From a virus: a stretch of DNA of 24,634 bases. The position numbers and the translations under genes are program-made. Numbering within the stretch: position 1 is the stretch's first letter; each line of letters opens with the position of its first letter. The notes below the pieces were generated by a model, which did not search any database, was not told the DNA's origin, and saw nothing but the letters and a program-made list of their open reading frames with translations. Location of the stretch: positions 1 through 24,634 of the IMG/VR virus record IMGVR_UViG_3300020200_000169. One strand, written 5' to 3'. Of this stretch, positions 2 through 23,357 are shown piece after piece.

Positions 2-502
2 GGAGGAAATCCGGAAATTACTCAAACCGAGTTGTCTAGAAACGGAATGGATCTTTGGCCAGAACCAATGTTTGAAACTCGATATCCGTATTACGCAGAA
101 GATCCAAGACAGATGTGGTCGTATTCTGATTCGTATACCGGAATAGAACTTCCAGAAGAACAATGGTACGGCAAAGAACTTGCAAAACAACGATCCGCAG
201 ATGTGGATCCAGAACGAAGAAAAACTCATATGGGAAGCGGCTTACTTATGGGATCTCATAGAAAGATCAAACCTCATCGATCATGGTGGTCCATACATCT
301 TCCAAAGAATATCTTTATATCTCAAAAATTATATTCTCAACTCACAACAGATCTAAGTAATGTCTGGCGACACGGGCATCATAATTACACTAATTTGCCT
401 GGAGATCCGTACGACGGATGGCTAAATTTCTTGAATAATGACTCGACAATTGAATCACAAATAGATACAATTCTGAGTAATACTTCATTCGATCTAGGAT
501 AA
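2..502 (+). CDS. C-terminal part of an unidentified phage protein, cut by the left edge
   Basis: The reading frame is open from base 2 and ends at TAA 500-502, so the true start lies outside the window. A TTG at 32 and an ATG at 47 are in frame, but nothing before them marks a start. About 166 residues are visible. They are rich in Trp, Tyr, His and Pro (for example WRHGHHNYTN and WWSIHLPKN) and have no cysteine, membrane segment or motif I can assign. The gene ends three bases before the next ATG, so it is probably co-transcribed with the cysteine-rich protein downstream. From its place before the baseplate block it is probably a virion or tail protein, but that is inference from context only. 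Confidence 0.75.
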   Translation, partial: GGNPEITQTELSRNGMDLWPEPMFETRYPYYAEDPRQMWSYSDSYTGIELPEEQWYGKELAKQRSADVDPERRKTHMGSGLLMGSHRKIKPHRSWWSIHLPKNIFISQKLYSQLTTDLSNVWRHGHHNYTNLPGDPYDGWLNFLNNDSTIESQIDTILSNTSFDLG

Positions 503-505
503 ATT

Positions 506-2710
506 ATGGCATTCTGTTGTTGTGATGAAACTTTTTGGCATGCTTGCATGAAAAGTGAGCATAGTTTCTTTTTAGGTTGGGACCAAACTAAGGACTTCAA
601 TTGGAAAGCAGAACACTGTTGCGCCCTTTTCGGCGCGGGCTTAGTATGTGATGGAGAACAACCCCCAAATTCGTATTGTGATCATTTTGGATTTTACAAC
701 TATACACTAACAACTAGATATGCTTTTAGCGCAAAAGATTGGAAAGAGGACGGAATATTCTATGATGCATATAAAAATGGAATAATTACTCCAGAAGAAG
801 TATACACCAGATATTACGATACATTAAAATATGCACCCTTTGGGTCGGGTGGCGGTTTCGGACAGAAGCAATCAGACGATCCTGACAAGTGTCTAGAGAC
901 AATTTATGCGTGGTATAAAACTGTATGGATTGAACCAAATCACGCCTACAGATGTGGAAAATTATGTACATCAGGAGGGAATGACCCTTATATATGTAAC
1001 TGTTTTGTTGGATGTACTGCCAACGGAAACGGAACTATAAATGAACAAGGAGCAACAGCAGCATGGTGTCCTAATGCAATATGCAGAGAAGTTGTATGTA
1101 GCAGCGAAATGACTCAATATGGTCAAGGAGAAGGATTATCTTATTGTTGCAAACCAGGCAACAAATGGGATGCCAAATGTATTGAGGCAGCTAAAGGAAA
1201 TACATTCTGTGAACAAAAATTAAAGCATAAAGATATTGTACTAGGATTAACTTATTGTAAAAACCAATTTGAGAATCCAAGTGTTTATTATAAAGGTGAA
1301 CTAGAAGATGGGAAAAGAATCAATTGTTGGAGTTCTTCCGGATCGGCTTTTCCACCTTTTCCTCCAGATTCAAAATTTGAAAAAAGAGTCATAGATATTC
1401 CTACTATTCACAAAACGTGCGAAGACGTTTGTGAAAAGTGTCCAATCCCATTTGACTGCAAAGACTGGACCTATATCGCTACACCTACAAAATTAATAAT
1501 ATTTCAATACAACGATTGTGTTTTGCAAACAGGAATTGAAATACGGGATATTGGAGATGCCGAATGGAAAGTAGAAGGATATATTGCACCATTCGGACTA
1601 ACAGGAGAATGTGTTGACTTGACAGACGGCGGATTCGGCCCGGGTAAGTTTTCTGGGTCCCAGGGGGGTAACGAGTGTCTCCGTTATGAACAACAAGGCT
1701 TGAGTGCAGAATTTATAAACTGTACTACCTGCAAAACCTCGACCATCCCAGATGGATACCTTTATGGAAGATGCCCAAATGGTCCTTGTATCAGTTCAAG
1801 ATGGGAATCACATCCAGCTGTTTATCACTGTATACCGCCAGGTTGGACTCTTGGGTGTTCTCCTCCGTATAAAGAGTGCGAGTGCCAAGAAGAGGACAAC
1901 TGCTGTCCCACCTCACCTTGTGATGGCCCGGCACCTCAAGGATCTCAACAATTTTTTGAAAAAGTTAATGAAATAAATTCAAACACAATTGTTATAGAAA
2001 ACAGATACAATAATTATATTACGCTAGCAAATTCTGTTTCTTCTTTTTTGAAAAGTCAGGCAATTAACGGAATTCCTGTTGCCTTGACCGGTTCATTGGG
2101 AATGAAAATACATACTCAAAATATAAGAAATTCATATGATTTATTAGAATTATTTAAAGGATTAAAAGATATAGATGTTGTAGTTAAACACAATGATATA
2201 ACTGACCTTATAAATTCAATGTCCTCGGATTGGTATTATCAGGAAGACATGATGAAAGATGCAGTAAAAACATTAAAATTTGATAGAAATTTTCAAGTTT
2301 CTCATCCCATGAGAGCAGTAAATAAAAATACAGGAATTATAATGGATATATTTCTAATTCCAGAATTAGACAATTATCAAGAAATAGATATTGAAAATTA
2401 TCATTTCTTGACAATGAGTCAAAAATATATAGCAAAAGCAAGATTACATGCAATCGACCACTATGAAACTAGAAAATTTGATTTTAAATATCATGCAGAT
2501 ACGATTGATTTTATTAAATTATCGCTGTTAAATAATAAATTCAATTTAGATGATATTTCTGAAGACTTAAATAAAATTAAGAATAATATTTTTAACGTTT
2601 CAATAAACAGATCATTATTCGAAATGCAATCTAGATTGAAAAATACGATTCAAGAAAATACACCAATATCATTGCCTATTTATCCGATTAATTTAAATCA
2701 AATAATATAA
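506..2710 (+). CDS. Cysteine-rich protein fused to a nucleotidyltransferase-like domain
   Basis: A 734-residue protein in two very different parts. Residues 1 to about 480 hold some 40 cysteines, starting with MAFCCC, and include a CC..(5)WD..C motif (C214, C215, W221, D222, C225) of the kind seen in secreted bacterial proteins. Residues about 485-734 have no cysteine and resemble the minimal nucleotidyltransferase fold. They show a GS pair (529-530) after a hydrophobic strand, DxD (D555, D557) in a hydrophobic context, a third acidic residue in IIMDIFLI (D614), and a late helix with K644, R656, K661, H663 and D665 like the KA..R..KH..D pattern of that superfamily. The GS-to-DxD spacing is longer than usual, suggesting a small insert. 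The start is ATG 506, preceded by AGGATAAATT. GC drops sharply at the domain join. Catalytic activity and substrate are unknown; a virion role is inferred from neighbours. Confidence 0.8.
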   Translation: MAFCCCDETFWHACMKSEHSFFLGWDQTKDFNWKAEHCCALFGAGLVCDGEQPPNSYCDHFGFYNYTLTTRYAFSAKDWKEDGIFYDAYKNGIITPEEVYTRYYDTLKYAPFGSGGGFGQKQSDDPDKCLETIYAWYKTVWIEPNHAYRCGKLCTSGGNDPYICNCFVGCTANGNGTINEQGATAAWCPNAICREVVCSSEMTQYGQGEGLSYCCKPGNKWDAKCIEAAKGNTFCEQKLKHKDIVLGLTYCKNQFENPSVYYKGELEDGKRINCWSSSGSAFPPFPPDSKFEKRVIDIPTIHKTCEDVCEKCPIPFDCKDWTYIATPTKLIIFQYNDCVLQTGIEIRDIGDAEWKVEGYIAPFGLTGECVDLTDGGFGPGKFSGSQGGNECLRYEQQGLSAEFINCTTCKTSTIPDGYLYGRCPNGPCISSRWESHPAVYHCIPPGWTLGCSPPYKECECQEEDNCCPTSPCDGPAPQGSQQFFEKVNEINSNTIVIENRYNNYITLANSVSSFLKSQAINGIPVALTGSLGMKIHTQNIRNSYDLLELFKGLKDIDVVVKHNDITDLINSMSSDWYYQEDMMKDAVKTLKFDRNFQVSHPMRAVNKNTGIIMDIFLIPELDNYQEIDIENYHFLTMSQKYIAKARLHAIDHYETRKFDFKYHADTIDFIKLSLLNNKFNLDDISEDLNKIKNNIFNVSINRSLFEMQSRLKNTIQENTPISLPIYPINLNQII

Positions 2711-2717: not shown

Positions 2718-3710
2718 ATGGTCTACAACGGCGATCCTAATCCTCCCTTAATAGATCCCAATTGCGAACCCGGGCCCTGGATTCCAGGATTAACTTTAAC
2801 AGAAAAGTATCCTGAAGAGGTTCCGACTCCAACTATAGAACTACCAGATCAATATATTCAGACGTATAAAAATAATTACGTTTCTGTTTATTCTAATCAA
2901 TATACGAATGATTTAAAAAAGTGGTTTACTGAAACTACTATGAGTTGGATTCGGGGCGACGGTCTTATATACAGTCCAAATTCAAACCAAGATTTAGACC
3001 AAGATTTAGTCCCCAAAGACGTATGGAAATGGGATCTCAGTGGAGAAAGTGAATACGGACTGGTTGAACCTCCTGTAAACGAACCAAACTACGATCTTTT
3101 TGACTCTAATTGGGCGGCACAGTTTGTTGTTTTCGGTCCAAGTGATGGCGGCTTTATGTCTTGCAAAAGTTTGGATTTAGACTGGTGTTCCTGGTCTCCT
3201 ACAACCCGACCAAGACGAGGACCAGACTCAGATATACATCAGAATTGTCCTGCACAATCTGCAAAACCCACAGAACCCGAGCCGTCTTATCTAGACTTAT
3301 ATAAGGCCTATTTGGAAGCAAACGAATGCGAACAAATAAAAAAAGTACTGGGACCTCAGTATTTGGGATGTATATGGTCTGATCCCAAGCATCCGTGTAG
3401 TTGCAATTGTCCAGAACAAGGAGTTTCTTTTGCAGATTATCTGGCAGCAACCAGAACATATGCCACGTTTTGGGATACTCCTCCGTCTACTCCTTTAATC
3501 AGGGCAGCACAAATAGGTCAATTGACACGTCAAACTCTTCAGATAGAAGTGGGAAATTTACAAGATAATATAGAATTGGGAAAATTTGTAAAAATAGATT
3601 CTGATAAAGATATCAAGGCATTTGAAGGTCTTTGGATGATAACCGCAATAACATATAATTTTTCTAAACAAAATGAATGTCGAATTTTGTTAACATTAAA
3701 TAGAAATTAA
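2718..3710 (+). CDS. Tail/baseplate-associated protein, hub-like C-terminal domain
   Basis: A 330-residue protein that I cannot assign firmly. The N-terminal 240 residues are Pro-, Trp- and Asp-rich, with a late CSCNC cysteine cluster in an HPCSCNCPEQG context. The last ~75 residues alternate hydrophobic and polar residues (QTLQIEVGN, LGKFVKIDS, LWMITAITYNFS, CRILLTLNRN). This resembles the C-terminal beta-barrel of baseplate hub and late-control (gpD/gp27-like) proteins, in which a short 'G.W.V..I.H.F' strand precedes a final LxLxR strand. The gene lies just before gp25 and gp6, which fits a central baseplate or hub role. No Shine-Dalgarno sequence precedes the ATG; the upstream bases are ATAATAT. 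The family call is an inference from pattern and position. Confidence 0.7.
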   Translation: MVYNGDPNPPLIDPNCEPGPWIPGLTLTEKYPEEVPTPTIELPDQYIQTYKNNYVSVYSNQYTNDLKKWFTETTMSWIRGDGLIYSPNSNQDLDQDLVPKDVWKWDLSGESEYGLVEPPVNEPNYDLFDSNWAAQFVVFGPSDGGFMSCKSLDLDWCSWSPTTRPRRGPDSDIHQNCPAQSAKPTEPEPSYLDLYKAYLEANECEQIKKVLGPQYLGCIWSDPKHPCSCNCPEQGVSFADYLAATRTYATFWDTPPSTPLIRAAQIGQLTRQTLQIEVGNLQDNIELGKFVKIDSDKDIKAFEGLWMITAITYNFSKQNECRILLTLNRN

Positions 3711-3721
3711 TATATAATAAT

Positions 3722-4090
3722 ATGCAAAAGTATTCGGATTTATCTTTTTTTCTTTCTTCCAACAAATATACAAAAGATTTTAATCTGACTACCGGAAAAA
3801 TCTCTTTATTAAATTGTATCAAGAATATAATATTGACTGAAAAAAATCACAGGCCGTTTGATTCTTTTTTTGGATCGAATGCATACGAATATTTATTTTC
3901 TTCTGATGCTAGTTCTTTGGCAGACTTATCATTCAATATCGCGGAAGCTATAAGAGCATCTGAGCCTAGAGTAGATCCGGATACAATAGATATAACAGCG
4001 GAAAATACAGTCAAAAATAAAATAAATTTAATTGTCAAATTAAATCTAATAAACGATCCCGATGCAATAACGTTTACCATAACTCTATGA
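3722..4090 (+). CDS. gp25: Baseplate wedge protein, gp25/gpW family
   Basis: At 122 residues it is close to T4 gp25 (132). It shows the family's order of motifs: a long helix around INCIKNIILTEKNHRPF (residues 30-46) with the conserved 'I.N.L.T..GERPF'-type pattern, FGSNAYEYLF (50-59), and the EPRV motif at residues 81-84 in RASEPRVDPDTIDI, followed by beta strands. Proteins of this family join the inner baseplate wedge to the sheath-initiating ring in contractile tails. The last four bases overlap the start of gp6 (ATGA at 4087), so translation is probably coupled. No Shine-Dalgarno is seen; the start follows ATAATAAT. Confidence in the family is high because of the EPR motif, the size and the gp6 neighbour. 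Confidence 0.93.
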   Translation: MQKYSDLSFFLSSNKYTKDFNLTTGKISLLNCIKNIILTEKNHRPFDSFFGSNAYEYLFSSDASSLADLSFNIAEAIRASEPRVDPDTIDITAENTVKNKINLIVKLNLINDPDAITFTITL

Positions 4091-5763
4091 CTCAAACTCC
4101 TCCCAATCTAACTAAACTCAACTTCGATGAAATCAAATCTTCGTTGACTAATTTTTTAAGAAATCAAACAGTTTTCAGTGGATTTAATTTCGAAGGAACT
4201 GTTATTCAAACAGTTATAGATTTACTGGCCTATAATACGTATTACTATGCTTTCTATTCTAATATGATTGCAAATGAAGCATTTTTAGATACTGCACGGC
4301 GACCTACTTCCATCATTTCTTTGCTGAAGCCATTAGGATATACTGTACCAGGAAAACGATCAGCAACTGCGTTTATTAAAATATTCACCAGTGATACCAA
4401 TATACAGTCCAGTGAAGTTGCCCGATACACGTTGTTTTCTGCGATATCATCTAGTGGATCTTTTTACAATTTTTATAATCTCAATCCAGTAACCTTAATT
4501 GAAGGAGTGGGTGGAGAAGGATCTGGTATTTTAGTTGCTGAAGCAAAATTAGTTGTAGCGGAACAAGATATAACCAATGAAATAGATTTAATAAAACAAA
4601 AATATTTGATACAACAAGAAGATGTAGATATATCAACTATTAGAATAGAAGTAAAACCTGAAAACGGAGACTGGTCTGAATGGACAAACATAAACTTCTT
4701 TCCTAACAATAACGATGAAGTGTTTTACATAGATCGGTTAGGAGACACATTTGTTATTGATTTTGGTAAGAAAAATAATTTAGGTCGTACCATTTTGCCA
4801 ACAGATCAAGTACGAATAAGTTATCTTGTGACTAGTGGAACTGCAGCAAATGAACTGTTTCAGTTTTCTAGTTCAACCTTCACTATATTAGATGCCACTA
4901 TAAGTGGTGGAGGATCAGACGGTCCTGATTTAAATTTAATCAAATTTTTGGCCCCAAAAGTATTTTCTGCACAAGAACGAGCAGTAACTAGTTCAGACTA
5001 TGTTGCACTTTTATTAAAAAACGGTTATATTTCTGATCCCGATCAGATTGCAATATACGGTGGAAACGAAATTAATCCACCAAAATACGGCAGAGTCTTT
5101 ATTTCTTTCCCCGCAGGAATAGGAAACCCAAACGAAATAGTTCAATTTTTAAGAGAAAAAAATATGATAACTGTTATACCGGAGTACATTATTCCTAAAA
5201 CAGTTGATGTAGTATTAAACATTGATCTTACATTCAAGTCTCAATTGTCTACTTCGGCAAAACAATTTTGGAAAAATAAAATACTTTCTAAATTCAATTC
5301 CCAGTTTTCTAGTTATGTTTCAGGATACGCGTTTGAACTTGCTTTTGACTTTAGTGAGTGGAAAGATACTATAACTGATGAATTTACGTCTGTTTTAACC
5401 AGTTTGGATTTTGATTCAATTGATTTTAAATTTGGTGTAGAAGACGCACCGCAAACTACAATATCATTTGGCACGAGTATAACATTAGACTCAACCAATC
5501 CAGTGATTTCAAATGAGTTTACCACAACAACTGGAGTCCAGGGAAAATTTGATATTCATAACGGCGCGACTGTTAGATTATTGAATCTAAATGGTAGTGT
5601 GATAAATTCCAATGTTGGTTCATTCTCGAATAATTCTATTATAATAAATAAAGTTTTTGCGGAACACCTGGAACCCAGAATTACTTTAAAATCCAGTAAT
5701 ACTGATATTTCTATAATGAATACAATAATGGCTAAGTTTATTTTAAATCCATCAATTTCGTGA
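4087..5763 (+). CDS. gp6: Baseplate wedge protein gp6
   Basis: At 558 residues it is somewhat shorter than T4 gp6 (660) and close to marine phage versions. The N-terminus shows the gp6 signature: LNFDEIKSSLTNFLRNQ (11-27), FEGTVIQTVIDLLAYNTYY (35-53), then FYSNMIANEAFLDTARRP (56-73) and a LKPLGY segment. The middle (around residues 290-400) has the baseplate_J-like region with AQERAVTSSDYVALLLK and YGRVFISF strands. gp6 dimers tie baseplate wedges into a ring and carry the conformational change during contraction. It starts inside the end of gp25 and is followed nine bases later by the next wedge gene. The assignment rests on motif pattern and synteny. Confidence 0.93.
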   Translation: MTQTPPNLTKLNFDEIKSSLTNFLRNQTVFSGFNFEGTVIQTVIDLLAYNTYYYAFYSNMIANEAFLDTARRPTSIISLLKPLGYTVPGKRSATAFIKIFTSDTNIQSSEVARYTLFSAISSSGSFYNFYNLNPVTLIEGVGGEGSGILVAEAKLVVAEQDITNEIDLIKQKYLIQQEDVDISTIRIEVKPENGDWSEWTNINFFPNNNDEVFYIDRLGDTFVIDFGKKNNLGRTILPTDQVRISYLVTSGTAANELFQFSSSTFTILDATISGGGSDGPDLNLIKFLAPKVFSAQERAVTSSDYVALLLKNGYISDPDQIAIYGGNEINPPKYGRVFISFPAGIGNPNEIVQFLREKNMITVIPEYIIPKTVDVVLNIDLTFKSQLSTSAKQFWKNKILSKFNSQFSSYVSGYAFELAFDFSEWKDTITDEFTSVLTSLDFDSIDFKFGVEDAPQTTISFGTSITLDSTNPVISNEFTTTTGVQGKFDIHNGATVRLLNLNGSVINSNVGSFSNNSIIINKVFAEHLEPRITLKSSNTDISIMNTIMAKFILNPSIS

Positions 5764-12777: not shown

Positions 12778-14463
12778 ATGGGAAAACAATCCAGCAATCC
12801 TCTTAGTGCATTAAATATAAACGGATCTTGTCTTTACGAAGGACCAACAGGACCAGTATGTATCTCAACAAATGCAGAAAAATGCCAGAGTCGATACAAA
12901 GGAGTGTTCGTAGAAGGAATAACATGTGGCTCAGCTTCTGGACTGAGTGGAAGTTGTTGTTTATGGGATCCTGAAAACAGAACAATACTTCCGTGTCAAA
13001 CTTCAACATTTTCAGCATGTCAGGCGTTAGCCCAATCATTTAATTTTAAATTTGATTGGTCTGTTGTTTCATGTAAAGAAAGAAAATGTGAATACGTTTT
13101 TCAGTCTGAGGCATCAAGACAACCAATACAAGGTGCCTGTTGCAACGGCAACGGACTATGCAAGGAAACTACAAAAGAAGATTGCGAAAACAGTCAATTC
13201 TTTTATCAGGGAAACGGTACTATATGCGACAATGGAATTTGTATCGAAGGAACAGGAGGATGTTGTAACGGAGTAACCTGTAACGATGGTATCACTGGAA
13301 CTTATTGTGTTGAAAACAAAAGTTTATATTTAGGAAAAGGAAAACGATGTTGGGAATTTACATGTGAAACAGATCGACTTCCGTGTTTGGACTCTATACC
13401 AACAGAAAAATTAAAAATTGGTGATTTATTCGAAGACGGAGTTGTCGTCGGAATTTATCAACCTGGTAGATCTTTGTGTTGGGGAAATTCTGCATTTTCC
13501 TCTCGAATCAATTTAAATCTTATTACTAATCCTGATCCTCAATCTGTAACTTATACTCCACTAGTAGACGGAAGAGGATACGGATTCATTCACTCTGACT
13601 TGTGTTCGATAGACGACTCGTACATCATGATTATGTCTAAGGAATCGTTATCCAATGACATCACTAAAAGTCGTTATACTTGGTGTGCAGGAGGAAATTC
13701 ATGGGGTCCTTTATTCGACAGATTTGGTAGAATAATAGAAACAGATACTATTGGATTAGCCTTAAGAAATGAAGGATATGTATATAACAGTGGACTAACG
13801 GATAATACAAATAATTCTATTATTAATGAAAATGCCACGTTTTATTGCAAAAAAAGAAGCCCGGCAGATAATCCAATTACCAGATTGACTACTAGGTCTG
13901 AACACGGTGCCTGGGGCAGATGGTCTATGGATTGGGGGTTGTATAATACCATACGATTAGTAAATGCAAAATTATTTAATGATGTAGGAATATCATATGA
14001 TGCCTATCTTTATCCTAGTTTATACGACAAGGGAGAAAAATTTAATACCATTTCAATGAAAACCATGAGTGAGGCTATAATTGAATTGAATCAAAATAGC
14101 AGCAGAAAACATCTTGCAACATCAGATTGGTTTATTCCGGCAGTAAATCAATGGGCATTTATTGCATATCAGATTAGACATAACAGATTAAATGAAAATC
14201 TTGTTGCTGCTGGTGCAGAACCTCTTTCTGATATTCATTGGACTTCTACTGGTGCTCACAATTACAAAACAGGAGAAGGTATATCAGATGGAATTACTGC
14301 CTCTATCGGTACAGTTGCTTGGTCTGTTAATTTCAATAATTTAAACTTTTATTTAAGAGACAGACTAGAAACAGCAAAAGTTAGACCTATGCGAATGGTT
14401 AGGTGTGATGGTCGATACCTTTCTTCTACTAAATATTCTGCAATATGGGAGGTTAACAGATAA
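12778..14463 (+). CDS. Cysteine-repeat adhesin with a C-type-lectin-like C-terminal domain
   Basis: A 561-residue protein. Residues about 16-198 carry disulfide-type modules of the form (G/S)xCC-x-C-xx(T)-x-C-x-G-x-C-x-C, with CC pairs at 60-61, 121-122 and 162-163 and a degenerate first copy around C18. Residues about 200-561 look like a lectin-fold domain of the DUF1566/Lcl kind: SDWFIPAVNQWAFIAYQ (W451), IHWTSTG (W488), TVAWSVNF (W515) and KVRPMRMVRCDG (R536 on). These follow that family's order 'W.LP...E...Y', 'YW.ST', 'AW...F' and 'VR.VR'. A receptor-binding role is inferred. The start follows AGGATAAATT, identical to the start context at 506. The stop overlaps the next ATG by one base. 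Confidence 0.85.
   Translation: MGKQSSNPLSALNINGSCLYEGPTGPVCISTNAEKCQSRYKGVFVEGITCGSASGLSGSCCLWDPENRTILPCQTSTFSACQALAQSFNFKFDWSVVSCKERKCEYVFQSEASRQPIQGACCNGNGLCKETTKEDCENSQFFYQGNGTICDNGICIEGTGGCCNGVTCNDGITGTYCVENKSLYLGKGKRCWEFTCETDRLPCLDSIPTEKLKIGDLFEDGVVVGIYQPGRSLCWGNSAFSSRINLNLITNPDPQSVTYTPLVDGRGYGFIHSDLCSIDDSYIMIMSKESLSNDITKSRYTWCAGGNSWGPLFDRFGRIIETDTIGLALRNEGYVYNSGLTDNTNNSIINENATFYCKKRSPADNPITRLTTRSEHGAWGRWSMDWGLYNTIRLVNAKLFNDVGISYDAYLYPSLYDKGEKFNTISMKTMSEAIIELNQNSSRKHLATSDWFIPAVNQWAFIAYQIRHNRLNENLVAAGAEPLSDIHWTSTGAHNYKTGEGISDGITASIGTVAWSVNFNNLNFYLRDRLETAKVRPMRMVRCDGRYLSSTKYSAIWEVNR
14447..14453 (+). promoter_or_regulatory. Strong ribosome binding site (GGGAGGT)
   Basis: GGGAGGT lies nine bases before the ATG at 14463, inside the end of the preceding gene. 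It supports that start and the one-base TAATG overlap. Many other starts in the window lack any such sequence. Confidence 0.75.
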
Positions 14464-15728
14464 TGCCGAATTCTTATGAAGGCAGTGGAATAGTTCCAAT
14501 ATGGGTATTGGACGGATCATTCGGACCAACAGGTCCAACGGGTCCAACTGGAGCTACCGGTGCCACTGGTGCCGCAGGAAGTTGTTTGCCTGGAAACACT
14601 GGTTTGGGAATTATAGGAATAACTGTTGATAATGACGATATTGTTATTTCTTTCGGCACAGCAGGTTCTGCTGTCACAATAAACAATGAAATTATTAGAG
14701 GCGCAACCGGAACAACTTTTAATAATTTATCCGAATGGAATATACAAGGTGCCACTACAAACGGTCAACAAATCTTTAGAACATTTAATCCTTTAGAAAA
14801 TGAATTGAAATCTGTAACATTTAGTGCAAATCCTAGTAATCCAAAAAAACTTGAATTTTTTGGATTGACTTTTATTAATATTACAGTTAAAAATTCTTCG
14901 GATACTGTAACACTCACGGCTACGACGAATGTTATTCCGTTGTCTGGAATAACTGGTCAATTAGCGTATGTAAATAAAATAAACAATATTATTGTTTCCG
15001 GTGCCACTGGTACTAATTGGAATGGAAACAGACTTTCGTATACTGGTCGATCTTTATTAGAATTGGATTCTTTCAGTTCAACTGCTACAGCTGATAATTA
15101 TACTAATGAGTTAATTTCTAGTATTACTAATACTCAAGCAATAGGAATTACTGGTGTTGGTGGAAACGTGACTGTAGTTAGACCTGTTATTGGTTTTACA
15201 GGAGGTGTATATCAACCCGGAATGGTAATTAGTAATCCTGGCGGAGAAGACTGGAGAATTCCCTTTCTGTCCGCCGATTATACTACAGGGTCAACAGCAA
15301 CCTTGTTGACTGGTGGTGCCACATTAGGATCTTGTTGGATTGCTGATATGCAAGATCCTAGAAAACGATGTGTAGACTTTTTAGGAAAAGATTATTGTTT
15401 GAGTATCGGAGGATCTTGGAGTTCAAATCCTTGCAGCACACGAGAAGAAGTATTTGCAAGTTTAAAAGCGTGTTGTCTTTATGATTACGCAACAAATGGT
15501 ATTACTTGTATAAATACTTTTGAATCCGAGTGTTTGCGTATGATGGGAGTACCTGGCAACGTCAAATGCGAAGTATACGAGGGAATTATGGAGAAGTGTC
15601 CAAACGATCTTTGTTTTACTTGTGAAATAGGTAAATGTTGTTATAAAGGAAAATGTTTTGAAAAAACCGAATCAGAATGTTTCCTGTTGTTTCCTGGTGG
15701 AGTTTGGTTTAGTGGAGAAACCTGTTAA
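14463..15728 (+). CDS. Collagen-like fibre protein with C-terminal cysteine modules
   Basis: A 421-residue protein. Residues 18-39 are Gly-X-Y triplets (GPTGPTGPTGATGATG and on), followed by a beta-rich shaft (about 45-285) with IIGITVDNDDIVISFG. This is parallel to the segment after the collagen run in the 11587 protein and marks the two as paralogues. The C-terminal ~130 residues hold cysteine modules: a divergent one from C291 with GGSWSSNPC, a CC pair at 337-338, and a CC pair at 392-393 (KCCYKGKC...ESEC...GGVWFSGETC). The protein is probably a trimeric fibre with disulfide-stabilised tips. Phage collagen-like proteins are known fibre components; the exact receptor is unknown. A strong GGGAGGT site precedes the start, and the stop overlaps the next ATG. 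Confidence 0.85.
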   Translation: MPNSYEGSGIVPIWVLDGSFGPTGPTGPTGATGATGAAGSCLPGNTGLGIIGITVDNDDIVISFGTAGSAVTINNEIIRGATGTTFNNLSEWNIQGATTNGQQIFRTFNPLENELKSVTFSANPSNPKKLEFFGLTFINITVKNSSDTVTLTATTNVIPLSGITGQLAYVNKINNIIVSGATGTNWNGNRLSYTGRSLLELDSFSSTATADNYTNELISSITNTQAIGITGVGGNVTVVRPVIGFTGGVYQPGMVISNPGGEDWRIPFLSADYTTGSTATLLTGGATLGSCWIADMQDPRKRCVDFLGKDYCLSIGGSWSSNPCSTREEVFASLKACCLYDYATNGITCINTFESECLRMMGVPGNVKCEVYEGIMEKCPNDLCFTCEIGKCCYKGKCFEKTESECFLLFPGGVWFSGETC

Positions 15729-15960
15729 TGACTCCCGGAGTCGGCTGTATAGGTCCACCGAGCCAATGTAGCACCAAGAACTATACCCCCTGCATATGGG
15801 GCGGGGTTAATATTTGTCAGCCATCGTGCTTCGGTTTTCCTGCCATCCTTGCCCTGCAGGGCAAGTGCTGTACCACGACCGGTTATTGTCCACCCGGAGA
15901 CCCGATCGAGTATGACTGCTGGTTTAGGGGCACTGTGGGTGGCGGCATGAAAATTATGTA
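15728..15960. other. GC-rich island at the 5' end of the giant adhesin gene
   Basis: By hand count the three 60-base lines from 15781 to 15960 are about 52%, 60% and 53% GC, against roughly 35-40% in coding sequence nearby. The island begins at the gene start and ends near the YPPPKGKG segment. It encodes the first cysteine module (CIGPPSQC to DCWFRG). It may be recently acquired DNA. Confidence 0.7.
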
Positions 15961-18900
15961 TCCCCCACCAAAAGGAAAAGGATATCACGCAGTAACTGAT
16001 GATCCAATACTTCCAACGTGGAGATATCCATTTATTCCTGGTACTTTAAATACATGGTGTACTCAAAAGTGTCCTTCTAAACAAACCGTAAGCGGAAAAT
16101 GTCAGGAAATAATTGATGGTTGTCCTGAGGTGTGTGACACCAGGTGCGGCGACGATGAGTGGTATAAAATAATAGAAAATTTACAATATACTGGTGCTAC
16201 AGGTAGTACGTTTCTTATAGACAGCACACAGCCTAGTAACCAAGTATCGATTAACGTAAAGGGTATTGCTGGAAAAAACTTCAATAATATGGGAACCAGT
16301 CCAGTTCGAATGGTATCAACAAATCCGTACGGCTCGTTATATCTGTTAAATCATTGGAGACACGGAACAACATATAATCAATTTATTGGAATAAGCGGAT
16401 CGGCGATTCCACATAAAATTCGATACGAATACATCCCCGATGGAGGATTTGGCCAACAACCAGATTATCTTCAAGTGGCACACGGTCAATCGTATGGTGC
16501 AATTATAAACAGTGGAGGATGTATTCAAACATGGGAAAGATGTACTTTTCCGTATGATAATTATTTTACAGAAAATCCAGATCCGAATATTCCTTGGCCA
16601 TCTGATATAATTTTATGGGAAAAATCTAAACAAAATGACGAAATACTTCAAGAGGGGATTCTAGCTGGAGCCAACACAGTTTTGAATTCATTGACTGGTG
16701 ACTGGACAGATAGACCGTTTTACATCAGTGGAAATAAATCTGCAGCAGGAACTGTTGCTGGAATGGGAACAACATCGGAAGGAGATATATTTGCCACAGT
16801 CTGGACCAATCCAAAAGGTTACAGATCGTTTGGAATGAACTATTTCAGAGTCAGTGAAGGATTTGACGATTTTGGAACTTTAACTGGAACAACATGGCAG
16901 GCAAATTATCAAGATGTTCCTAAAGGAGTTTTTGGAGTTAGGCCAGATCTGTTAATTTGGAGGGCTGCACATCACTTGTATCCCTCTAAATTTTTTAAAG
17001 GATTTACTGGATGCGATGGATTTAGTGGACAATATATTTGTCGAGATAGACAATGGGAAGGATATCTGGGATGGACAGGACACGAATGTAATGAGGATCG
17101 TCTGAGTCCGTCTCAAGTATATTTCAAACAAGTTTCTTTAGGAAATCAGCACGGATTAGTTTCTCTTGCCCGACTAGATAATATTGATGAAGCTAATGTT
17201 AAGTATCATGATAATACTCCCAATAATTGGAGTCAATTACGAGAAAATCTTAATACAAACAGACGAGAAAAAATTGAATGGTTGTTTCAGTTTTCTGGTT
17301 CTAATGCGGCTAATATTTCAACTGGGAATAACTGGTCTACTGAAAACTTGTTAATAGATGATATAGGAACGCTTATATTAAATCCTACTAATCCGGGGGT
17401 GGTGGGTACTCCTACCTCGGCGATTTCAAAATTAGTATACACTAAGAAAGATTTTGTATACGAAATAGGATTGACTGCTGAGGTCCAGCTAGGACCACCC
17501 ATAGAATTCCGAGTTCCTGATGTATACAATGACATATGCAGATGGTGTGTTACTCTTGGTAAAGAAGAAGAAGAAACGAATCCTAATGGTGATCCTCTTA
17601 TAGTTAATCCGTATATTTGCAATCCTTTTTTATCTACTGGATTTACTGGTTGTTTCAGAACTGGAGTCACATTCGGTCATTCGGATCATCCTATCTGGAA
17701 CAGCGGTACTGCAGAAATGCCCAATATATTCGTTTTATCAGCTTTGAATATTGCAAGACTAATTGAGGCCTCCACGGGTGTGTTACAAAACGCATCATGG
17801 GAATGGATATCTGCTGGTTCTAGTGGAAACAGTTGTGCTGTATTATCGTACAATATACAAGGGCGTACGAATACAATCCAAACCAAAAGACAAGTTCTTT
17901 GTTGGGGACCAAGATACAATAAACCCTTAAACGATATAGAAGAGAAACACTGGCCCAAAAACAATCAACAACTACAACCGCACTCTACTATTGAGCCAAT
18001 ACCGTGTTCAGAGCCGTCAGGAGTCACTTTAGGAGTAACTTGGCATCCGTGTCAAGTAGATTGTTCGTTGGAAAGTCCTATATTTTATCAAAAATCTTGG
18101 CCGTTTGCATCGTATCACATCGGAGGCAATCTTTCGATGAAGTATCCTTGGATGACTGACAAGGAACCAACTACTTGGAGTTACAATACTCTTGCAAAAG
18201 TACTTGTATGGAATGAAACAGCAACAGCATGGATATCCAAGAGTAATGCGACAATCGATGAACCCATGCAGACACATTATCGAGATCCCAATTTCGATGA
18301 AGACACATCCAAAAATTTAAGTAAAACAATATATTTTCCTAATGGATTAAATCAAGTTCAACACAGGGTATTTAATGATCTGCCGTTCCCCGATGGCGCA
18401 GAATTTGAGGACTGGGATAACCAGAATACTTCCTTTTTGCCTCTGATTCCTAACTTTACGTCTAGTCAGCTCCAGAACTGGGGAGAAACTATGTTTCTGC
18501 CTGAATGGTTAAATCAATGGTGGTTCCCAAATTGGACTCCGAATTATCCTGTTGTTTCAGGAAATTCTTGGTTAGTAAATTTGTATGCAAAAAATACCAG
18601 CATCAATTGTGATCAGTGTCAATTTACCGGAAACACTGGATGTTGCGAACTTCAAGGTTCTCAGTGTTTCATATCAGAACGATTAGACTGTGAATCTGTG
18701 GGAGGTACATGGACAGACGAACCATGTCCGGAGACTTGTGATGGTGCTTGTAATGCGATCGACACCAACCCAGTCACATTGGACTTTTCAAGAACTGGAG
18801 GAAGTCAACAAGTATTGTTGAGTGGTGCGTCTAAAGTTTGTAATTGGACTGCTGCTGTTAGTGGTGGTGATGCTAGTTCTTGGATTACTGTAGATCCAGT

Positions 18901-19366
18901 TGCTGGAACTGCCAGTTTAGTTAATATTGAAGTTGCAGAAAATAATGATGGGTCTCCCAGATTTGGAACAGTAACAATTCGGGAAACTCAGTCTCCTAAC
19001 ACTACAAAAACCATAACGGTCAATCAAAGTGATCAGAGCGGCGGCAGCGACTGCTGCGTTGCGAACCCTGGCACGGCCGGTTGCAGCGACGACGCCTGCG
19101 AGACCCTGGTGTGTGCGCACGATCTCGACTGCTGCACTATCGAATGGGATCAGGACTGCGCCACTAAGGCCGTCCAATTATGCTCCGCATGCGGCGGCGG
19201 CGGTGGTAGCGGTGGCGGCGGTGTAGGAGAAAATTGTTGTGATTATTTTACTGGTCCGTGTTGTAAAAACAATAGTTGTCAGGAAAATACAACTCCACAA
19301 GAGTGTCATAAACATGATGGTATATTTTTAGGATTTAATCGAACTTGTGACGATTGTCCGTCATGA
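15728..19366 (+). CDS. Giant multidomain adhesin: cysteine modules, BACON-like and CC..WD..C domains
   Basis: A 1,212-residue protein, the largest here. Residues 1-80 are cysteine-rich (CC at 47-48) and GC-rich. Residues about 240-950 are Trp/Gly-rich; VAHGQSYGAIINSGG (250 on) and ISAGSSGNSCAVLS (694 on), each before a CxxW or CWG segment, loosely recall RCC1 propeller blades. A cysteine module follows at 961-1003 (CC 972-973). Residues 1012-1100 fit a BACON-like fold (NPVTLDFSRTGGS, SSWITVDPVAGTAS, NNDGSPRFGTVTI, TITVNQSD), a carbohydrate-binding-type Ig domain also known in phages. Residues 1109-1152 are a CC..WD..C module, then a Gly linker (1156-1165) and a last CC module to the end. GGAGA at 15714-15718 and a TAATG overlap define the start. 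A receptor-binding or decoration role is inferred. Confidence 0.83.
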   Translation: MTPGVGCIGPPSQCSTKNYTPCIWGGVNICQPSCFGFPAILALQGKCCTTTGYCPPGDPIEYDCWFRGTVGGGMKIMYPPPKGKGYHAVTDDPILPTWRYPFIPGTLNTWCTQKCPSKQTVSGKCQEIIDGCPEVCDTRCGDDEWYKIIENLQYTGATGSTFLIDSTQPSNQVSINVKGIAGKNFNNMGTSPVRMVSTNPYGSLYLLNHWRHGTTYNQFIGISGSAIPHKIRYEYIPDGGFGQQPDYLQVAHGQSYGAIINSGGCIQTWERCTFPYDNYFTENPDPNIPWPSDIILWEKSKQNDEILQEGILAGANTVLNSLTGDWTDRPFYISGNKSAAGTVAGMGTTSEGDIFATVWTNPKGYRSFGMNYFRVSEGFDDFGTLTGTTWQANYQDVPKGVFGVRPDLLIWRAAHHLYPSKFFKGFTGCDGFSGQYICRDRQWEGYLGWTGHECNEDRLSPSQVYFKQVSLGNQHGLVSLARLDNIDEANVKYHDNTPNNWSQLRENLNTNRREKIEWLFQFSGSNAANISTGNNWSTENLLIDDIGTLILNPTNPGVVGTPTSAISKLVYTKKDFVYEIGLTAEVQLGPPIEFRVPDVYNDICRWCVTLGKEEEETNPNGDPLIVNPYICNPFLSTGFTGCFRTGVTFGHSDHPIWNSGTAEMPNIFVLSALNIARLIEASTGVLQNASWEWISAGSSGNSCAVLSYNIQGRTNTIQTKRQVLCWGPRYNKPLNDIEEKHWPKNNQQLQPHSTIEPIPCSEPSGVTLGVTWHPCQVDCSLESPIFYQKSWPFASYHIGGNLSMKYPWMTDKEPTTWSYNTLAKVLVWNETATAWISKSNATIDEPMQTHYRDPNFDEDTSKNLSKTIYFPNGLNQVQHRVFNDLPFPDGAEFEDWDNQNTSFLPLIPNFTSSQLQNWGETMFLPEWLNQWWFPNWTPNYPVVSGNSWLVNLYAKNTSINCDQCQFTGNTGCCELQGSQCFISERLDCESVGGTWTDEPCPETCDGACNAIDTNPVTLDFSRTGGSQQVLLSGASKVCNWTAAVSGGDASSWITVDPVAGTASLVNIEVAENNDGSPRFGTVTIRETQSPNTTKTITVNQSDQSGGSDCCVANPGTAGCSDDACETLVCAHDLDCCTIEWDQDCATKAVQLCSACGGGGGSGGGGVGENCCDYFTGPCCKNNSCQENTTPQECHKHDGIFLGFNRTCDDCPS
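15848..15865. repeat. Perfect 18-base palindrome inside the GC island
   Basis: CTTGCCCTGCAGGGCAAG is identical to its own reverse complement, centred on a PstI-type CTGCAG. It lies inside the coding sequence and encodes part of LALQGK. It could form a strong hairpin with no loop, or be a site for a dimeric protein. No function is supported. Confidence 0.85.
19037..19222. other. GC-rich island encoding the CC..WD..C module and Gly linker
   Basis: By hand count the 50 bases from 19031 are 72% GC, and the lines from 19081 and 19141 are 62% and 63% GC, against about 40% just upstream. Codons such as GGC, GCG, CTG and TGC replace the GGA, GCA, TTA and TGT preferred elsewhere. The island covers exactly the CC..WD..C module and the Gly/Ser linker that follow the BACON-like domain. 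Confidence 0.8.
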
Positions 19367-19372
19367 TAAATA
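19365..19372 (+). promoter_or_regulatory. Possible late promoter element (GATAAATA)
   Basis: This matches NATAAATA in the junction between the giant adhesin and the next fibre gene, seven bases before the ATG at 19380. No Shine-Dalgarno lies between. The match is suggestive but AT-rich junctions make chance hits likely. Confidence 0.3.
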
Positions 19373-19379
19373 ATTAACT

Positions 19380-21584
19380 ATGAGTATTATCGGATCTAGT
19401 TCAATACTTGCAACCGGCTCAACCGGTTCTATTGGTCCAATTGGTCCACAAGGAAATACAGGTAACACTGGACCAGACGCAACCGGTTGTGGTGAGTTAA
19501 CAAAAGGAAATACTGCATCTTATATTTCTTCTGTAACTCAAACAAAAAATCCGTGGGGAAATTTAATTTTTGGATTAAATGACGGTTCTACCGTTGAATT
19601 TAATGCACCAAGTATAATTGGCGCCACTCTTTCAAGTTTCTATGGAGTTCGGGCAATAACTTTAGGTTCTGATTCGTTATTTGCAGGAATAACTCAAACT
19701 ACAGCCGGTTTAACTTTTCAATTTAAAACTATAACATCATCTGTGGGTGCATTGAGTGTAAAAAACACTGCAGATCAGATTGTATTTAATTCTTCGTTGA
19801 CCCCGTATAATGCAACTGGATTTACCTCAGCAGAATTGGTTTACTTTTCGAGTATAACTGGTTCAAACAGACTTGCCGGAATAACTCTTGCGGGTTCGAC
19901 ATTTTTCAGATATAAAAATAACAATTATTTTGATTTAAATACTGTCATATCTTCTAAAACCAATATAGTACCTATTCCATCAGCTACTCGAGGTTCAAGT
20001 GGAGAATACATCGACGTGTCTAAGGGTGGTTTATTCTACATCAACACTCCGAACGGCATAATGGGATTTACAGGCATTAGCGGCGCGCCAGGAACTACCG
20101 GAACTATTCAATCTATTACTCTTATTACACAATCGGATTACATTTGGAAATTCCCAGAAAATGTTTGGTTTGAAGCCAATAATAATTACTTGGGTTGCGG
20201 CGAAACTGTTATCGGATTAACAACAAAAAATAACGGAGAAAATTGGACAGCAACAATATTTGGAAGAGGATTTAAGAACGACCCTACACAATGTCAGTCT
20301 GATTGGGATATAGGTTCTTGTTATCAAGGAATATCGTGTAATAATTATGTTTATCGAGCAGATTGTGAAGCTGCTGAAGGACAATTTTGTTTAGAAGCGT
20401 GTTCCGTTGAAACTGAAATATTCGATGCAGGTTCTTGTTGTATAAACGGAGTTTGTCGAGATGGAGTATCTAAATTTTTATGCACAAAATACGGAGGCAG
20501 ATGGTGGAGTCCAGAACAAACAGGTCCTGACGGTTGCAACGCATTCGAATGTTGGGATCCTTGTTTAAGTGGTGGCGGCGTTGGCGGTGCTGGCATGACT
20601 GGTTCGTGTTGTGTTGGTGCAACCTGTTTGGATCGACATACTGAATCAGAATGTGAAATGCTTAACGGAAATTGGAGAAATAGTCCTTGTAGTCCAACTT
20701 CATGTAATCCTCTTTCTGGAGTCACTGGTGCATGTTGCGTAAATAAGGATACATGTGTACAGGCCACATATCAAACATGTATAGATGTACTTGAAGGAAT
20801 TTTTGTTGGTATCGGAGAAACGTGCGGAGCTGTTAATTGTGATTGTTTTACATACACGTCTTCTGCTATAGGATGTAATAGTAATGTAAATAGATCCGGT
20901 GTCGCTTTTTCTGAACAAAAAATAGATTTATCTTCATTGAATTGGATTAAAAGTGAAGGAATTTCTCAAGGCAGTTTCTGTTTTTCTTATATACCAAATA
21001 AGACACCAGATAGATGGTTAATTCTAAAAACAAAAGATACCGATTCCGGTAAGCAATTTTTAATACGAGGCTCAGAAGATGCAAGGTATAAATCCGATTA
21101 CAAAGACTTTATTGTAGAATCGAGTCATCCATGGTATTCTGATAAAACCAGTTATGCTGGAGCAATATTATTTGATACTGGTTGTACTTGGGGTGAAGTT
21201 GCACAGAGATATAGAAAAACTGTTACAGTAACTGAAAATGATGTAGAAATAGATGACACAACTGATTTTTGGTATAAGAAGATAAGATTATGGAATCTGG
21301 CAGGATGTAACTCGGAGCAGCAAAACTTCACCAATTGGTCAATAGGAATTAGTTGTGGGGATTGTCCCCCATCATCGCAACCTTCGACTCAATTACCTTC
21401 AATAAATAACGCAATATCAACAGAACACTATATAAATAGTAATGTTACTTATACTTTATGGCAACCGAACTATGCATTACTCAAAAACACGTCTGATACC
21501 AGTTCACCGAAATATCCAAATTTATCAACTACCAATCCTCCAAATTATTCATCAACTACCAATCCTCCAAAAATGGGATATTAA
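19380..21584 (+). CDS. Collagen-like fibre protein with three cysteine modules
   Basis: A 734-residue protein. Residues 13-33 are Gly-X-Y triplets (GSTGSIGPIGPQGNTGNTG and on). Residues about 45-300 are a beta-rich shaft related to those of the 11587 and 14463 proteins (LIFGLNDGSTVEFN; ITGSNRLAGITLAGSTFFRYKN). Residues about 300-490 hold cysteine modules with CC pairs at 353-354, 410-411 and 452-453, split by a GGGVGGAG linker. Residues 490-670 form a Trp/Tyr-rich globular part with SQGSFCFSYIPN and DRWLILKTKD, perhaps a jelly-roll, but I cannot name it. The C-terminus is a Pro/Ser/Thr-rich tail with a duplicated STTNPP unit. A fibre or adhesin role is inferred from collagen-like architecture and position; no Shine-Dalgarno is seen. 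Confidence 0.83.
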   Translation: MSIIGSSSILATGSTGSIGPIGPQGNTGNTGPDATGCGELTKGNTASYISSVTQTKNPWGNLIFGLNDGSTVEFNAPSIIGATLSSFYGVRAITLGSDSLFAGITQTTAGLTFQFKTITSSVGALSVKNTADQIVFNSSLTPYNATGFTSAELVYFSSITGSNRLAGITLAGSTFFRYKNNNYFDLNTVISSKTNIVPIPSATRGSSGEYIDVSKGGLFYINTPNGIMGFTGISGAPGTTGTIQSITLITQSDYIWKFPENVWFEANNNYLGCGETVIGLTTKNNGENWTATIFGRGFKNDPTQCQSDWDIGSCYQGISCNNYVYRADCEAAEGQFCLEACSVETEIFDAGSCCINGVCRDGVSKFLCTKYGGRWWSPEQTGPDGCNAFECWDPCLSGGGVGGAGMTGSCCVGATCLDRHTESECEMLNGNWRNSPCSPTSCNPLSGVTGACCVNKDTCVQATYQTCIDVLEGIFVGIGETCGAVNCDCFTYTSSAIGCNSNVNRSGVAFSEQKIDLSSLNWIKSEGISQGSFCFSYIPNKTPDRWLILKTKDTDSGKQFLIRGSEDARYKSDYKDFIVESSHPWYSDKTSYAGAILFDTGCTWGEVAQRYRKTVTVTENDVEIDDTTDFWYKKIRLWNLAGCNSEQQNFTNWSIGISCGDCPPSSQPSTQLPSINNAISTEHYINSNVTYTLWQPNYALLKNTSDTSSPKYPNLSTTNPPNYSSTTNPPKMGY
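21524..21571 (+). repeat. Tandem repeat, 27-base period, two copies
   Basis: A 21-base unit beginning ATCAACTACCAATCC occurs at 21524-21544 and 21551-21571, separated by TTATTC. It encodes the duplicated STTNPP unit at the C-terminal tail of the fibre protein. Exact identity suggests a recent duplication. Confidence 0.9.
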
Positions 21585-22682: not shown

Positions 22683-23357
22683 ATGGGGTGTGGTTGTAAT
22701 AAAAATAAAAACTCTGAAAAATCCTGCACTGGCTCGGATTGTCCGTCAACAAAAGCAGTAAAAGAAATTACACCGTCAACAAAAGCAGTAAAGGAAATTA
22801 CAATTGAACATTTGATTAAACCTGTTTCTGATATAAATACTCGTAGTGTTCCTGTTTGGGTAAAACAAAAAGGTTATAATATGGATCAAGAATTTAAAAA
22901 ACGAGAAGTAGCGCCTTCAAATCCGATTGCAAAAGGATTTGGAATGGCAACAAGTTTTATTAATGCAATAGCGTCTAAAGGAGTTAATAGTGAAAAGGTA
23001 AACATTCCTTTAAAACAATTACGAGTATTGAGTTGTTTTGGGAATAAAGATTCTGGTGGAGTATTGCCTGCTTGTGAATACTTACAAACAAGTGCGACAC
23101 CAGGAAAATTCTTTTGTGGAGGATGTGGATGTGGAGATAAGCCTCTTACTTGGTTAAACGGTACTGCAGAAGAATACAGTAAACTAGATTATCCAAAACT
23201 GTCTTGTCCTCTTCAAATGCCTGGATTTTCTAATTATAAAGAATCTGCACCAGAAGAATCTGTTGCACCAATTACTCGTCGAGCCTATATTGAAAAGATG
23301 AAATTTGAAGAATTAACCTCGGTTCCAGTAACTATGCCAGAAGATCCCAAGAGTTAA
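22683..23357 (+). CDS. Cysteine-cluster, probably metal-binding protein
   Basis: A 224-residue protein starting MGCGC, with C3, C5, C15 and C20 at the N-terminus. Two exact PSTKAVKEIT repeats follow (21-40). The core has C118 and C131, then the cluster FCGGCGCGDK (C145, C148, C150) and C175 in LSCPLQMPGF. The spacing suggests a zinc or iron-sulfur site, though the metal cannot be told. Residues 84-100 are hydrophobic and Gly/Ala-rich (GFGMATSFINAIASKG) but too short and polar for a firm membrane call. It precedes gp13 with a 48-base gap. The start ATG lies one base after the preceding stop, with no Shine-Dalgarno. The function is unknown; virion or assembly-related by position. Confidence 0.8.
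   Translation: MGCGCNKNKNSEKSCTGSDCPSTKAVKEITPSTKAVKEITIEHLIKPVSDINTRSVPVWVKQKGYNMDQEFKKREVAPSNPIAKGFGMATSFINAIASKGVNSEKVNIPLKQLRVLSCFGNKDSGGVLPACEYLQTSATPGKFFCGGCGCGDKPLTWLNGTAEEYSKLDYPKLSCPLQMPGFSNYKESAPEESVAPITRRAYIEKMKFEELTSVPVTMPEDPKS
22743..22802 (+). repeat. Tandem repeat, 30-base unit, two copies
   Basis: Two in-frame 30-base copies (22743-22772 and 22773-22802) begin CCGTCAACAAAAGCAG and differ at one base. Each encodes PSTKAVKEIT. The near-identity points to a recent slip duplication in the linker between the N-terminal cysteines and the core of the protein. Confidence 0.93.

Follow-up and report, generated by a model that had tools for sequence, protein, structure and literature searches.

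A nucleotidyltransferase-like domain on a cysteine-rich protein encoded in the baseplate operon of a virus with a T4-like structural region

With enzymes carried in the virion, of which T4 Alt is one, a phage can act on its host ahead of phage gene expression, and to our knowledge the enzyme types found in such a role are few. Might the tail of a T4-like virus carry another? The question is raised by one gene, at positions 506 to 2710 of IMG/VR record IMGVR_UViG_3300020200_000169, a linear record of 24,634 bases from an uncultured virus with a T4-like structural region that was analysed over its whole length and is called the window here. The first part of the gene product is rich in cysteine, and the last part had been read, in an original prediction made without database searches, as a nucleotidyltransferase-like (NTase-like) domain. 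Our analysis upholds an NTase-like C-terminal domain on a cysteine-rich protein that a baseplate operon encodes. The fusion proved to be real, and a second virus conserves it. Judged from its sequence, the domain is probably an active, divergent NTase of the Pol-beta superfamily with an intact metal-binding triad.

A two-part gene and its putative active site

How firm is the division into two parts? The protein has 41 cysteines, close to the 40 or so first claimed, and every one lies within residues 1-478, while residues 479-734 have none. This sharp boundary between the cysteine-rich half and the cysteine-free C-terminal half was counted in favor of the NTase reading. Relatives of the whole protein and of the domain were sought in IMG/VR, GTDB genomes, phages and plasmids, and a single one was found, on a 50.7-kb contig of an uncultured T4-like virus (IMGVR_UViG_3300043409_001235, hereafter L008). 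There was no relative among 50,697 phage records, and no counterpart turned up among the known phages searched, in keeping with the earlier remark that such a protein is not known from T4-like phages. The L008 protein occupies the same position, is 855 residues long (in an open frame of 859 codons) and matches both halves, with 26% identity across residues 1-337 and 23% across residues 460-709. A profile search (A1) of 395 genomes from the phylum of a metagenome-assembled genome titled Chitinophagaceae returned short, weak and scattered matches, which were judged to be chance.

The GC content of positions 1940-2707 is 25%, versus 36-41% around them, and L008 shows the same drop, though not in GC at third codon positions. 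Since the two halves of the L008 gene are equal in that measure, the shift there mostly reflects amino-acid composition, and low GC is poor evidence for a recent acquisition of the domain.

Does the domain retain what an NTase would need? The GS pair (529-530), D555, D557 and D614 lie exactly where they had been placed, and all three acidic residues claimed are present and are also retained in L008. Aligned with each other, the two domains (position 1 of the window domain being residue 484 of the protein) are 24% identical, with G529, D555, D557, W576-Y577-Y578 and D614 among the positions that do not vary. The first motif of L008 reads LVGGIALNIH, its DxD is DVD and its third motif is VVDIF. 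Two sequence features expected of the superfamily were found: a hydrophobic-x-G-[GS] motif followed by DxD, and, on a strand further along (predicted, 129-135 of the domain), a third acidic residue, D614. Retention of the glycine, the DxD aspartates and the third aspartate at 24% identity fits selection for metal binding. It also argues against an unlikely alternative, in which the fold is that of an NTase and the domain, without being an enzyme, serves the tail protein as a structural or binding module, its motif residues kept by chance or for folding. That alternative draws on the variation of K644, D665 and D668 in L008, on the replacement there of the first-motif serine by glycine, and on the very small size of the family.

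The order of the motifs is rare. A pattern of hydrophobic-x-[GA][GS], DhDhh and hDh with spacings was scanned against 842 distinct open reading frames of at least 150 residues from all related loci (collected by a gp6-based scan, 80 loci at first). It matched three: the 734-residue protein and two readings of the single L008 homologue, and no other protein. Shuffled versions of the two domains matched at 6e-4 and 5e-5; these rarity figures flatter the case, because the pattern was written after the sequences had been seen.

The original prediction had also likened the domain to AbiEii/MNT-type enzymes, partly through a terminal KA..R..K.H.D helix. The helix is present and R646, R656 and K657 are kept, but K644, D665 and D668 are Leu, Asn and Ser in L008, so that part of the helix motif is not conserved. 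MenT/AbiEii proteins have four motifs, of which I and II bind metal, III serves nucleotide transfer and IV serves catalysis (PMC11375011); on our own reading the helix motif would correspond to motifs III/IV. The likeness therefore extends to the order of motifs I and II and to a helical C-terminal region, and ends at the motif III lysine and motif IV aspartate, which L008 does not conserve. Could the domain nevertheless be a phage-carried, tRNA-modifying toxin of the AbiEii/MenT type? The succession of GS, DxD, third aspartate and helical tail, in which the window protein has K644 and D665/D668, would suit one. We consider it highly improbable: neither Pfam nor PADLOC gave a match to this family (PF08843, DUF1814), the profile comparison described below places it at noise, and no antitoxin-like neighbor was seen.

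Table 1. Features of the gene, its putative active site and its neighbors (window positions).
Feature	Positions	Strand	Basis
Whole gene: cysteine-rich N-terminal and nucleotidyltransferase-like C-terminal parts	506..2710	+	uninterrupted open reading frame, 734 residues; L008 counterpart
Cysteine-rich region, residues 1-478, starts MAFCCC	506..1939	+	cysteine count; L008 identity
Nucleotidyltransferase-like domain, residues 484-734, cysteine-free	1955..2707	+	L008 alignment, profile ranking, Foldseek top matches, composition
Motif I, G529-S530 (L008: GG)	2090..2095	+	L008 alignment
Motif II, D555-x-D557, both Asp invariant with L008	2168..2176	+	L008 alignment
W576-Y577-Y578, invariant with L008 (there LPKEWYY)	2231..2239	+	resembles LPxxW of DUF6036 members
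Third acidic residue, D614 in MDIF (L008: VDIF)	2345..2347	+	L008 alignment
Left flank: C-terminal end of long tail/hub-like protein (L008: 1281 residues)	2..502	+	tblastn to L005-L008
Right flank: conserved 330-residue protein, no PHROG/Pfam family	2718..3710	+	in 75/80 first loci
gp25-like baseplate wedge protein	3722..4090	+	phrog_261, E=1.7e-18
gp6-like baseplate wedge protein	4087..5763	+	phrog_219, E=9.2e-78

Family and structure searches

No library, Pfam and PADLOC among them, names the domain confidently. The best Pfam NTase match of the window domain is to NTP_transf_5 (PF14907), with 12.5 bits (E=0.11) where the curated cut-off is 31.2 bits, and the best NTase match of the L008 domain is to phrog_1614, annotated as nucleotidyltransferase (E=0.11). 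The profile search that the original prediction had proposed as a check thus gave weak NTase leads over the motif region, far below the family cut-offs, and no confident Pfam match. Aligned by hhalign with NTP_transf_5 and with the CCA-adding-like family to which phrog_1614 belongs, the domain has its glycine motif, DxD and third aspartate in register. For DUF6036 (PF19502) hmmscan gave no match at E<=1, the family cut-off not being reached. A match to DUF7277 (E=0.058) could not be checked, as no member of that family was found, and searches of PDB sequences returned nothing credible.

Since the hhalign query consisted of two sequences without secondary structure and raw probabilities were near zero, the comparison was calibrated with shuffles and control profiles. 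Four NTase family profiles built from genome loci were compared alongside 22 controls, 26 profiles in all. DUF6036 ranked first, with a z score of 7.2 versus shuffles, a raw probability of 1.8% and a family alignment of nine rows, some of them out of frame. The second-ranked profile, a control (z 6.2), was dismissed as an artefact, its alignment spanning five columns outside the core domain. The CCA-adding-like family ranked third (z 3.7); NTP_transf_5 reached 1.4 and AbiEii 0.8. In the DUF6036 alignment the GS of the window protein falls on the GS of the family, and DxD and the tryptophan of WYY fall beside their counterparts. This bacterial family shares the hydrophobic-GG/GS first motif and DxD, and some members have LPxxW and a third aspartate in VDII; the members recovered are encoded by bacterial genes of their own, without the fusion to a cysteine-rich phage protein that is seen in the window. 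The window and L008 domains are better described as a family of their own, nearest by profile to DUF6036-type proteins.

An AlphaFold model of the window domain, made with the two sequences, has a predicted local distance difference test score (pLDDT) of 50.8. Its top three Foldseek matches in the PDB are all of NTase type (5uvd, 4o8s and 5kqj; E 0.018 at best), followed lower down by TUT7, a minor TUTase, SpoT, tRNA-processing enzymes and an alarmone synthetase; none is significant and the TM-scores are all low. Structure matches in BFVD are mostly uncharacterised proteins. Several observations weigh against calling the domain an NTase. The L008 model is worse (pLDDT 47), both models are of low confidence, and Foldseek gave no NTase match for the L008 model. 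VIA-align lists no NTases, its matches being mostly of the C-terminal helices with unrelated helical proteins. None of the similarities reaches statistical significance by itself, and the family consists here of two sequences. In structure prediction and overlay, a further check that had been proposed, NTases thus head the list of the window model at a level short of significance, and the L008 model matches none.

Could the motif order then be coincidental, in an AT-rich, Asn/Asp-rich orphan domain that is no nucleotidyltransferase? The lack of a significant database match, the low-confidence models and the one model without NTase matches would all be expected of such a domain. We regard this as quite unlikely, less probable even than the non-enzymatic module, because the conservation and the rarity of the motifs agree independently with the profile ranking and the first Foldseek matches. 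On the strength of that agreement we hold it very likely that the C-terminal ~250 residues have the NTase fold, and consider it reasonably likely, from the residues retained, that the domain is catalytically active.

A hypervariable slot among tail genes

Where does the gene sit? It is encoded among virion genes, between tail/hub-like and baseplate wedge genes, in a tight operon with gaps of 3 and 7 bases to its tail and baseplate neighbors. The gp25-like (phrog_261, E=1.7e-18) and gp6-like (phrog_219, E=9e-78) genes lie downstream, as expected from the baseplate setting first proposed. The full-length upstream protein of L008 (1281 residues) matches the tail protein family phrog_350 (E=2e-10), and the gene preceding it has weak similarity to a baseplate wedge family (phrog_232, E=0.0058), which places the slot inside the baseplate operon. 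Beyond the two wedge genes, the window encodes further baseplate proteins, several cysteine-rich proteins and, at its right end, connector (neck) proteins. Identity to the best-listed isolates, which include Pelagibacter phage Mosig and cyanophages, is about 26-31% for the gp6-like protein and about 37-41% for the neck proteins. Neither gene flanking 506-2710 has a match in the 50,697 phage records, and the lineage is therefore one without close isolates in that collection.

In most relatives that have both flanks, the upstream tail protein adjoins the 330-residue gene across a short gap and the slot is empty. In the closest relatives with an occupied slot, the protein contains cysteine and varies in length: 171 residues in L005-L007, ~610 in L013, 734 in the window, 855 in L008 and ~908 in L012. 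More distant loci also have cysteine-rich slot proteins, up to 2484 residues (L104). Altogether the slot was seen occupied in the window, L005, L008, L012, L013, L104 and L161, over a range of 171-2484 residues. The 2484-residue protein (L104:8480-15931) contains RCC1 repeats (PF13540, E=2.7e-24) as well as 118 cysteines and is unusual for a phage structural operon.

A separate gene adjoins the 330-residue gene at L012:7629-8444 and L009:124-939; it carries VVVGSVARFF...YRDIDIL, which resembles the first two NTase motifs, and ends in a cysteine-rich GACC repeat. The L012 gene is marginally similar to NTP_transf_5, its score being equalled by 2% of shuffles, and shows no likeness to the other families. 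It was not counted as a family member, the similarity being statistically marginal, and its PADLOC match to Cas5 (E=0.0019) looks like chance. In the L012/L009 gene an NTase-like domain may have been combined with cysteine-rich modules independently.

Cysteine-rich proteins are also found elsewhere in these structural regions. The element C..VC..CC..WD..C...A is common to several slot proteins and to the product of window 15728-19366, a protein of 1212 residues with 57 cysteines and a BACON domain (PF13004, E=7.8e-7). Four more window proteins contain 4-5% cysteine (12778-14463, 14463-15728, 19380-21584 and 22683-23357), the first with a weak Lcl_C match (E=0.012). On the L008 contig (IMGVR_UViG_3300043409_001235), positions 14761-19410 of the same structural region encode a predicted protein of 1549 residues with 137 cysteines.

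Proposed action and relation to known systems

What would an NTase do in a baseplate operon? Our best guess, offered tentatively, is that the protein is a virion effector. Its cysteine-rich, hypervariable part would be made from the baseplate operon and built into or onto the tail, and its NTase part, requiring a nucleoside triphosphate and a metal ion, would work inside a cell. The most likely site of action would be the newly infected host, following tail contraction, where transfer of a nucleoside monophosphate to host RNA or protein would favor infection. Activity outside cells is unlikely because of the nucleoside triphosphate requirement, leaving entry into a new host or the producing cell. 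We prefer the former with modest confidence, because the domain is attached to a variable cysteine-rich protein of a tail operon. Two points count against this proposal: most relatives have no gene in the slot, so the slot gene is dispensable for the lineage, and for this candidate effector both delivery and activity are read from operon position and sequence, virion carriage being favored by gene position and operon layout only.

Alternatively, the enzyme would act late in infection on RNA or protein of the host or the virus, inside the cell that produces it and without being delivered to the next host, and the baseplate operon would serve late expression only. The sequence evidence is the same for this account, no signal or delivery motif was recognised, and most relatives do without the slot gene. 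We find it somewhat unlikely, as fusion to a cysteine-rich baseplate-slot protein in two viruses would be odd for a purely cytosolic enzyme. Broader than virion delivery of this one protein, and rather doubtful, is the proposal that this lineage uses the slot for cysteine-rich tail proteins whose C-terminal modules are exchangeable, an active NTase delivered at infection being one such module.

Virion-delivered enzymes are already known, as are Pol-beta NTases in multidomain proteins of mobile elements; apart from the L008 contig, none of the collections searched contained the present combination. Should the domain be active and delivered, it would add an NTase to the list of virion-carried phage enzymes, make baseplate-operon slots places to seek effectors, and offer a defined acidic triad open to mutation. 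Substrate precedents are tRNA, for MenT toxins (PMC10435456), and protein, proposed for polyvalent-protein NTases (PMC5512222).

The injected-enzyme precedent is T4 Alt, a virion-carried ADP-ribosyltransferase (PMC5512222). The analogy is in working, in that a T4-type virion carries the enzyme. Alt differs in fold and chemistry and is packaged in the head, whereas the 506-2710 protein is a putative virion component. In their survey of injected multidomain proteins, Iyer et al. (2017) found a Pol-beta NTase domain in conjugative elements only (PMC5512222). Such polyvalent proteins likewise hold the NTase within a larger mobile-element protein, for which a role in the recipient cell has been proposed; in the window protein it is joined instead to a cysteine-rich protein of a phage baseplate operon. 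Finally, type VI secretion systems have (p)ppApp synthetases among their toxins (PMC12691689). These are Pol-beta-superfamily synthetases delivered by a phage-tail-like machine, of the RelA/SpoT type and so of another branch of the superfamily, and the likeness is by analogy alone. If the slot does carry exchangeable modules and an active NTase is delivered from it, it would be the equivalent in phages of contractile injection systems loaded with effectors, and its NTase would belong to a new family.
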